NCBI GenBank assembly: GCA_947595045.1
Contig: CANQEN010000005.1
Location: 1-38,690 of the forward strand
Length of the DNA: 38,690 nt
Source: an uncultured Bacilli bacterium
Lineage (GTDB): Bacteria > Bacillota_I > Bacilli_A > RF39 > UBA660
Direction: 5' to 3'
Each line of letters begins with the position of its first letter. Within the stretch, counting starts at the first letter, position 1. Position numbers and translations under genes: made by a program. Shown one piece after another: positions 10,133-19,576 of this stretch. Under the pieces are notes generated by a model. That model was not told where the DNA came from. It did not search any database and saw nothing but the letters and a program-made list of their open reading frames with translations.

Positions 10133-10330
10133 TTATGCACAAAAAAAATAGTCATTTTGATTAATTAAACAAAGTTATACACACCTTATACACAAAATTG
10201 TGCATAAGTTTAGTGTACTTAATAACTTATGTGCATTACTTTAACAAAAAAAATGTGGATAACTCTAAAAATGCTACTTTAATTTAATATAAATGTGTGC
10301 ATAAGTTTGTTTTTTTATTATTTATCCACA
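10133..10330. promoter_or_regulatory. oriC: oriC DnaA-box cluster upstream of dnaA
   Basis: Nine-mers: TTATGCACA 10133-10141(+), TTATACACA 10175-10183(+) and 10186-10194(+), TGTGCATAA 10199-10207 and 10296-10304 (TTATGCACA on -), TGTGGATAA 10254-10262 (TTATCCACA on -), TTATCCACA 10322-10330(+). Confidence 0.92.
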
Positions 10331-11914: not shown

Positions 11915-13036
11915 ATGAAATTTAAAATTAAGCAAAATATATTATTTGAACATTTAACTTATGTTATAAGAGGAATATCCTCTAAAAATTTAATTCCTAT
12001 TTTAAATTGTATTAAATTTGACTTATTAGATGAAGGACTATACTTAACTAGTTCTGATAATGAATTATCAATTAAAACTTTCATTAAACAAAAAGATATT
12101 GAATCTATTGAACGATTAGGTTCTTTAGTTGTATCTGGACGTTTTATATATGATATTGTTAGAAAATTAGATAATGAGATTATAAATTTAGAAGAAATTA
12201 TAGATTCTCAGGTTCTAATTACTACTTCAAAATCTTCTTTTAAATTAAATTGTAATAATGTTTCAGAATATCCTAATATAAATTTAGAGTTAGGTAAAAA
12301 TCCTATATCATTATCACAACAAACTTTTAAAACGACTATTCATCAGACTATTTTCGCTACTTCTAATCAAGAATCTAGACCAGTATTAACAGGAATTAAT
12401 TTTAAAATAAAGAATAATTTATTACAATGTACAGCTACTGATTCATATCGTTTAGCTAAAAAAACAATAGAATTAACAAATCCAGTAGAAGAAGATATAG
12501 ATATAATAGTTCCAGCAAGGAATTTATTAGAAGTGATTAGGATGCTAAATCCAGAAGATAAAAATATAGATATACATATATTTAGTAACAAAATTATTTT
12601 TAATTTTGATAATATTATAGTAATGTCAAGATTAATAAATGGTACATATCCAGATACTAATAAATTGTTACCTACTGATTTTAAATTAAAAGTAAAATTT
12701 AAATTAGATGATTTATATGGAGCTATTGATCGTGCTTCATTACTTACTAATGAAGAAGAAAAGAATATTATAAAACTAGAAACAAAAGGGAATTTAGCTA
12801 TTTTATCTTCTAATATTCCAGAAATTGGAAATGTAGAGGAACAACTAGAGATAGAAAAAAATATAGAAGATGAAATAAAAATTGCTTTTTCTTCAAAGTT
12901 TATGTTAGATGCTATTAAAATATTTGATAGTGTATCTGTTGAATTAAAATTTAATAGCGAAATTAAGCCTATTATTATTACTGATGGGACTAATGATAAT
13001 TTAATTCAATTGATATTACCAATTAGGACATATTAA
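11915..13036 (+). CDS. dnaN: DNA polymerase III beta clamp
   Basis: ORF after dnaA; SNQESRPVLTGINF, ATDSYRLAKK, C-terminal ILPIRTY. Confidence 0.96.
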   Translation: MKFKIKQNILFEHLTYVIRGISSKNLIPILNCIKFDLLDEGLYLTSSDNELSIKTFIKQKDIESIERLGSLVVSGRFIYDIVRKLDNEIINLEEIIDSQVLITTSKSSFKLNCNNVSEYPNINLELGKNPISLSQQTFKTTIHQTIFATSNQESRPVLTGINFKIKNNLLQCTATDSYRLAKKTIELTNPVEEDIDIIVPARNLLEVIRMLNPEDKNIDIHIFSNKIIFNFDNIIVMSRLINGTYPDTNKLLPTDFKLKVKFKLDDLYGAIDRASLLTNEEEKNIIKLETKGNLAILSSNIPEIGNVEEQLEIEKNIEDEIKIAFSSKFMLDAIKIFDSVSVELKFNSEIKPIIITDGTNDNLIQLILPIRTY

Positions 13037-13043
13037 ATGAAAA

Positions 13044-13078
13044 AGATATAAATAGTTAAGTATTTATTTCTTTTTTTT
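13044..13078 (+). terminator. Intrinsic terminator after dnaN
   Basis: AGATATAAATA GTTAAG TATTTATTTCT followed by a T run. Confidence 0.65.
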
Positions 13079-13159
13079 CAATATTCGAGCTTTTTCGCTA
13101 TTTAATTGTATTATAAGATAATTATTCAAATTTTTTTGATATTTAGGGAGGAAATGGTT

Positions 13160-13612
13160 ATGTTAAAAAATTATGAAATAAATAATGCGACTGTAGCTTT
13201 AATACCAGTAGATAAAAATACTACTAAAATATATGAAGAAGAAGCCGAATATACTGTAGAATGTAATACTAATAAGATAATAGCTGATAATTGTAAATTC
13301 TATGGAAGTTCTTATCAAGGAAGATGTGAAGGTACAAAATATTTAACTGGAATTAAATCAAAATTTCCAATCATTATCGAAGAATCAAGAAATATTATTT
13401 TCTTTCCTACTTCTTCATTTAGAAATAATCAAAACACTTGGGTAGCATTAAACAAGATTAAAGCCTATGATCAGTTGTCTTATGGAAAAAGTTATATTAT
13501 TTTGAATAATGGTAAAAAAATATCATTAGATATATCTCTTTATTCACTAGATAATCAGTTTTGTCGCGCTAATTTATTAAAAGCTAAATTATATGATCGA
13601 AAAAACAGTTAA
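13160..13612 (+). CDS. ComK-like competence transcription factor homologue
   Basis: YEINNATVALIP, CKFYGSSYQGRCEGT, FPIIIEESRNIIFFPTSS, NGKKISLDISLYSLDNQFCRANLLKAKLYDR align with ComK blocks; SD AGGGAGG favours the ATG at 13160. Confidence 0.8.
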   Translation: MLKNYEINNATVALIPVDKNTTKIYEEEAEYTVECNTNKIIADNCKFYGSSYQGRCEGTKYLTGIKSKFPIIIEESRNIIFFPTSSFRNNQNTWVALNKIKAYDQLSYGKSYIILNNGKKISLDISLYSLDNQFCRANLLKAKLYDRKNS

Positions 13613-13637
13613 ATAAGCAAAAAAGCTTATTTTTTTA
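13611..13637 (+). terminator. Intrinsic terminator after the comK-like gene
   Basis: AAATAAGC AAAAAA GCTTATTT followed by T run. Confidence 0.8.
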
Positions 13638-13647
13638 CTCTAAAATG

Positions 13648-13695
13648 TGATATAATTATATATAGGTACAGGGATATGTACTATACATATTTTTC
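13648..13695 (+). promoter_or_regulatory. Extended -10 promoter and leader hairpin upstream of recF
   Basis: TGATATAAT at 13648-13656; ATATGTA CTA TACATAT at 13674-13690 followed by TTTTC. Confidence 0.45.
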
Positions 13696-13731
13696 TTTAA
13701 ATGAGCTAAAAACATAAAATGAGGGATTATC

Positions 13732-16777
<3,046 letters not shown>

Positions 16778-19379: not shown

Positions 19380-19475
19380 TTAAATAAATGTTATATTAAA
19401 AGTAAAAAAAATGAAAGTCACAAACAATATTAGATGAAAGTTGATTTTTCTTTATAAATATTATATACTTTTTTT

Positions 19476-19550
19476 AGCACAACATTCATATTTGAAACAG
19501 GTCAGGATTGGAAAATAGCAGCCTTAAGAATCACTGAATGTGTGTGCTTT
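19476..19550 (+). ncRNA. ffs: Small bacterial signal recognition particle RNA (4.5S-type)
   Basis: GGTCAGG-ATT-GGAA-AAT-AGCAGCC apical core (GGAA tetraloop); flanks AGCACAACATTCA / TGAATGTGTGTGCT pair, then T run; gyrA-tadA neighbourhood. Confidence 0.88.
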
Positions 19551-19560
19551 TTTATTATAA

Positions 19561-19576
19561 TGTTTCACGTGAAACA
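19561..19576. promoter_or_regulatory. parS: parS site 3
   Basis: TGTTTCACGTGAAACA immediately upstream of tadA. Confidence 0.95.

Follow-up and report, generated by a model that had tools for sequence, protein, structure and literature searches.

Why should the gene for a competence regulator lie in the replication origin cluster of a small-genome member of the Bacilli, and what might control it there? The question is raised by a 38,690-nucleotide stretch of DNA from an uncultured bacterium of this class (the window), in which a 150-codon gene between dnaN and recF had been proposed, from the letters and open reading frames alone, to encode a truncated homologue of ComK standing in place of yaaA/rlbA. 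The product of this gene matched the Pfam ComK family (PF06338) with an E-value of 6.5e-43 and 146.5 bits against a curated cut-off of 22.3 bits, and the match covered model positions 2-150 of 152. The gene is therefore a genuine comK, as the original prediction had held, and its product is the single ComK of the window's own 1.14 Mb genome. An NCBIfam search of the same protein gave no match to a ComK model, and the PDB searched by ComK sequence returned chance matches only, with no solved ComK structure found. Annotated ComK of Listeria was recovered by tblastn against plasmid records (33% identity over 95% of the query, E 2e-20), as were the annotated proteins of Staphylococcus, Planococcus and Priestia. 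When aligned, ComK of Listeria (202 aa) and S. aureus (189 aa) extended well beyond the window protein, which ends where the Pfam domain ends and is missing the ~40-residue tail of its Listeria and Staphylococcus relatives. This C-terminal tail is not among the defining features of the Pfam family, so the idea of a truncated ComK holds for the tail, whereas the conserved domain itself is complete. The protein thus belongs to a known family; its setting, and the Spo0A wiring proposed below, are undescribed as far as we could find.

Table 1. Features of the comK locus and the neighboring origin region (positions within the window).
Feature	Position	Strand	Basis
DnaA-box cluster, probable oriC	10133-10330		7 boxes with at most 1 mismatch each; GC-skew switch
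dnaN (upstream neighbor)	11915-13036	+	Pfam DNA_pol3_beta domains
dnaN terminator-like hairpin and U-run	13039-13076	+	RNA fold -10.2 kcal/mol, z -3.8
Degenerate tandem 0A-box array, TTTTTCA-3-TTCGAGC-3-TTCGCTA, 10-bp steps	13074-13100	+	Position-weight matrix; register
comK promoter -10 element TATAAG	13112-13117	+	Alignment across 85 relatives
comK ribosome binding site GGGAGG	13146-13151	+	Sequence
comK	13160-13612	+	ATG start, 150 codons/150 aa; Pfam ComK PF06338
comK terminator-like hairpin and U-run	13611-13637	+	RNA fold -6.7 kcal/mol, z -2.1
recF own promoter -10 element TATAAT	13651-13656	+	TGTGATATAAT conserved after comK in relatives
recF (downstream neighbor)	13732-14874	+	Pfam SMC_N; synteny

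The GC skew of the window switches sign near 10 kb, which together with the DnaA-box cluster places comK about 2.8-3 kb from the probable origin, within the dnaA-gyrA cluster as had been claimed. Hairpins followed by U-runs were present on both sides of comK and support the proposal that it forms its own transcription unit, although a stricter terminator consensus scan requiring at least three G-C pairs found neither of them. In many relatives, the recF leader (13657-13731 in the window) contains, just after the -10 element, a conserved short sequence, (G)TATAGGAGTAC; a loose pattern for it fits 30 of 45 loci, the window's copy is degenerate, and no Rfam match was obtained. Separately, a bacterial small SRP RNA (RF00169, E 4.8e-11) was located at 19466-19563 of the window, just 3' of gyrA.

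Is this arrangement peculiar to one genome? ComK was present in 178 of the 193 genomes of the window's family, in which the relatives bearing names are uncultured Bacilli, partly from gut samples. Among 45 inspected loci, 30 of which come from the best-scoring family genomes, 40 had dnaN upstream of comK (in three cases the two were set apart by a further stretch of about the size of a gene), and in the remaining five comK adjoined ligA and/or gatC. The order dnaN-comK-recF-gyrB spans many genera, and a recent isolated insertion of comK, the outcome that could have undone the original prediction, was rejected on the strength of this clade-wide position. The RlbA/YaaA model TIGR02988 found nothing over its cut-off in 22/22 family genomes. 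Of 120 genomes of the class, by contrast, 92 matched, and at each of the 20 class loci examined the gene immediately preceded recF; comK does, then, take the place of yaaA/rlbA in the window's family. Across the class, ComK-like proteins were found in 130 of 296 genomes. In none of the 20 loci opened from its other families did comK stand between dnaN and recF; most had it flanked by pgk and a gene for an ABC-transporter ATPase, or following ridA. Since family loci keep dnaN-comK-recF and those of other families do not, the arrangement is a property of the window's family. The ComK-like gene beside pgk in other families of the class (L264-L269, L271-L272, L275-L279) is short.

Whether the location itself matters is evenly balanced in our judgment. 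The slot may have been filled by chance and kept through operon inertia, with the origin position neutral and without a dosage role, a reading compatible with the explanation that we prefer below. Such neutrality fits with the differing addresses of comK, both in other families and in the subgroup of this one where it adjoins ligA/gatC, and with a gene that has its own promoter and terminator, but it sits less easily with retention beside dnaN in 40/45 loci across many genera despite separate promoters. Against neutrality also stands the pneumococcus, in which the dosage of com genes near the origin triggers competence according to Slager et al. 2014, as cited in PMC6289044.

The sequence upstream of comK offers a candidate for its control, a set of tandem Spo0A-type boxes that the original prediction had overlooked. 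In 85 comK upstream regions of the family, the 7-mer TTCGACA occurred in 56 exact copies versus 0.6 expected from dinucleotide shuffles, with its reverse complement present six times and its reversal absent. Pairs of [CT]GACA were spaced by 10 bp (11 cases) or 20 bp (30 cases), and two others by 41 and 45 bp. When the promoters were aligned, three 7-bp boxes separated by 3-bp gaps (i.e., in exact 10-bp steps) became apparent, the third beginning 18 bp before a TATAAG-like -10 element in 44 of the 85. A conserved hairpin in the 5'-leader of the comK mRNA, visible by eye in many relatives, was discarded as a further element (mean z -0.7, with 12/50 below -1.5). TGTCGAA/TTCGACA is the core of the Spo0A box (PMC3485338), and PcomK of B. 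subtilis is a direct target of Spo0A~P, with three activating sites (A1-A3), two repressing sites (R1-R2) and a role for Rok (PMC3297582). Spo0A_C was detected in 92 of 98 family genomes, and a 0A-type box preceded spo0A in most members examined (ATCGACA in the window's own genome). Searching the whole genomes of 15 relatives for box pairs returned, besides comK, spo0A itself, a membrane HisKA/HATPase kinase and a sigma factor. Where comK has been relocated beside ligA/gatC, array-like sequences were again found upstream, clear in two loci (L021 and L027) and weak in the other three. Because the boxes have the Spo0A core, spo0A is widespread and has a box of its own, B. subtilis provides a precedent and relocated comK genes are accompanied by arrays, Spo0A is the likely regulator of comK in this family.

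Correspondence between the boxes and an intact Spo0A was loose. Boxes at up to one mismatch were missing from several family members whose Spo0A is intact (G020, G023, G044, G072), some with truncated or undetected Spo0A (G096, G036, G087) retained boxes, and the overall correlation was weak (without boxes, 4/8 versus 5/38; one-sided Fisher P 0.036 for a comparison selected post hoc). The array could be real and yet serve another regulator or an origin element, such as a DnaA- or replication-linked protein. Its distance of about 3 kb from oriC and one TTCGACA pair upstream of dnaA in L040 would suit such a role; we nevertheless deem it very unlikely, given that the box also occurs before spo0A, the kinase and the sigma factor, that relocated comK still has array-like sequences with it, and that the array core is that of the known 0A box, whereas the DnaA boxes here read TTATNCACA.

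Control by Spo0A, the regulator favored for the family, was less clear-cut in the window's own genome. The window array sits 18 bp before TATAAG, in the register seen in 44/85 relatives, and a position-weight matrix of boxes plus -10 element, trained without the window's own genome, ranked it first of 77,294 window positions (19.6 versus 12.2 for the next). With the boxes alone it ranked third, and as each box carries at least two mismatches, Spo0A control in this particular genome is less certain. Its Spo0A is complete (254 aa; Spo0A_C 9e-40, Response_reg 1e-21). SpoIVA gave only a sub-threshold match in the same genome, versus 83 of 98 family genomes matching the model, and the window's species may have lost sporulation while keeping full-length Spo0A. 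A non-sporulating family was considered and rejected in view of the SpoIVA matches and of the prediction that RF39, to judge from genome size and source the probable order of the family, forms spores (PMC10868615).

If Spo0A switches on comK, what would ComK control? The late competence genes that had been named as a check were found in the window's genome: comEA-comEC (L108 542-3257; ComEC_Rec2 267 bits versus a cut-off of 190, and the ComEA HhH region 83.8 bits versus 53.1) and, on L107, a PilB/ComGA-like ATPase, a PilC/ComGB-like protein, a prepilin peptidase and pseudopilins. ComEC was present in 52 of 58 family genomes and a T2SSE-type ATPase in 57 of 58. Because the family ATPase fits PilB/GspE with a better score than ComGA, the pilus machine is assigned to the competence type of type IV pilus by inference only. 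A second pilus cluster in this genome, of Tad type (L109 3774-8778), comprises a CpaF-like ATPase, two TadB/C-like proteins, a ParA-like protein and small pilin-like proteins.

K-boxes (AAAA-N5-TTTT), the other check proposed, did not bear out the expectation. They were enriched at comK promoters (51 versus 19 expected), but the enrichment was rejected as non-specific because the swapped control TTTTN5AAAA was enriched as much or more (71 versus 18), and none of 30 comGA promoters contained a K-box. As a result, no ComK target sequence was identified, and the step from ComK to the com genes rests on homology. The divergent comGA/pseudopilin promoter (L107 9947-10032 in the window's genome; L077-L106 across the family) contains a conserved palindrome, approximately TTATTCTAAATATATTATATAATATATTTAGAATAAATRCTAG, and TATTATATAATA occurred in 18/30 of these promoters versus 0.03 expected; the palindrome may be the site of a pilus regulator, possibly ComK. 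Upstream of comEA (L108 near 480-541; L047-L076), AAGGAAWT is often followed by a CGAATA-like element, an arrangement resembling sigma-H promoters, with AGGAA[AT] in 16/29 regions versus 2.9 expected; sigma-H-like factors in the family score below the TIGR02859 cut-off.

MecA was detected in 0/58 family genomes by a search whose control recovered B. subtilis. In B. subtilis, truncation of ComK by 25-35 C-terminal residues abolishes comG induction (PMC3536758). As the family naturally does without the tail that B. subtilis requires, its mode of activation and DNA site may differ, and by this comparison the tail-less ComK may act differently from its B. subtilis counterpart. These same features, namely the missing activation tail, the Spo0A-type promoter and the lack of K-boxes at comGA, would also fit a ComK that no longer governs DNA uptake and instead serves as a Spo0A-regulated regulator for sporulation or another stationary-phase process. 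We judge this rather unlikely: comK is kept in 14 of 16 genomes lacking SpoIVA, which argues, with the reservation that MAGs are incomplete, against a purely sporulation role, and comEC remains widespread in the family, even if the losses of comK and comEC are not clearly coincident in these incomplete assemblies.

How ComK might contact DNA was approached through its predicted fold. An AlphaFold2 model of the window ComK (15 sequences; pLDDT 79, pTM 0.76) had as its best structural match in the PDB the LytTR domain 3d6w (E 1.2e-3, probability 1.00, TM 0.40/0.52), with AgrA and ComE among the next matches and weaker, chance-like PH-domain matches interspersed; TM-scores of the LytTR matches were only 0.35-0.56. 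Pfam LytTR (PF04397) scored the window ComK below threshold (20.4 bits versus a cut-off of 22.6) and matched 6 of the 15 alignment members at E-values up to 0.1. Alignment by hhalign of a profile of 64 ComK sequences with the LytTR domains of E. coli BtsR and PyrR gave a P-value of 9e-4 at a probability of only 24%, versus P-values of 0.79 for receiver domains and 0.28 for reversed LytTR as controls. The profile alignment pairs the RCHR-x-VNL and VPVSR blocks of LytTR with SPRxxCIWINL and DISxxSL of ComK, while one distant ComK homologue matches LytTR at a different, inconsistent place. Together, these three weak but independent tests suggest a LytTR-like fold, a lead for a protein that by the Pfam cut-off is a non-member. 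A full-text literature search for ComK and LytTR together found no paper on their relation, as judged by title and abstract.

Overall, we consider it probable that a true comK settled in the dnaN-recF slot from which rlbA/yaaA was lost, that it is most likely activated by Spo0A, and that its product in turn most likely switches on the genes for DNA uptake. On this explanation, rlbA/yaaA would have been lost in a family of small-genome gut Bacilli and comK would have become established in its slot, close to oriC and transcribed as a unit of its own. In a promoter whose -10 element reads TATAAG, Spo0A would bind the three tandem 0A boxes, which overlap the -35 region and extend upstream of it, thereby switching on comK, and the short, tail-less ComK, in a lineage without detectable MecA, would in turn activate the DNA-uptake genes, as expected by homology. 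Proximity to the origin could contribute a gene-dosage effect as well, by analogy with the pneumococcal com genes. Spo0A binding, the direction of regulation, the targets of ComK and any origin-linked dosage effect are all inferred here from sequence. A more far-reaching proposal, to which we give somewhat less than even weight, is that ComK is a divergent DNA-binding protein of the LytTR superfamily with a fold common to Bacillus ComK and Streptococcus ComE, and that the tail-less, MecA-less ComK of this family comes under the direct control of a Spo0A box array beside oriC in a simplified Spo0A-to-competence circuit.

These results would add a large uncultured gut lineage, with genomes of roughly 1 Mb, to the bacteria with ComK-based competence, and they show that comK occupies a stable place in the conserved dnaN-recF origin cluster. 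A Spo0A-to-ComK connection this compact, which dispenses with MecA, K-boxes and the activation tail, would make it testable which assumptions drawn from B. subtilis are species-specific and which are general. The fold evidence provides a testable hypothesis for how ComK binds DNA and, if the LytTR reading is true, the master regulators of competence in Bacillus (ComK) and in Streptococcus (ComE) have a common fold.

Compared with known systems, the window comK shares its chromosomal slot with RlbA/YaaA (TIGR02988), an unrelated protein whose S4-domain gene is absent from the window's family. With ComK of B. subtilis, Listeria and Staphylococcus it has in common the whole Pfam domain, the CxFYGSSYxGR and FFPTxSP...W motifs and the presence of DNA-uptake genes in the same genome, and it differs in being tail-less, in the lack of a detected MecA, in K-boxes that are not specifically enriched and in its position between dnaN and recF. 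The LytTR domains of AgrA, ComE and BtsR (PF04397) resemble ComK in predicted fold and aligned motif blocks, whereas ComK falls below the Pfam cut-off and is longer by an additional N-terminal part. Tandem 0A boxes near the -35 region and a consensus-like -10 element are also features of sigma-A promoters that Spo0A activates, among them spoIIG and spoIIE. The family PcomK is similarly built in outline, but its target is the competence regulator. Finally, PcomK of B. subtilis receives direct Spo0A input, as is predicted here, but the family promoter differs in its compact array of three boxes, set in 10-bp steps and placed 18 bp from the -10 element.
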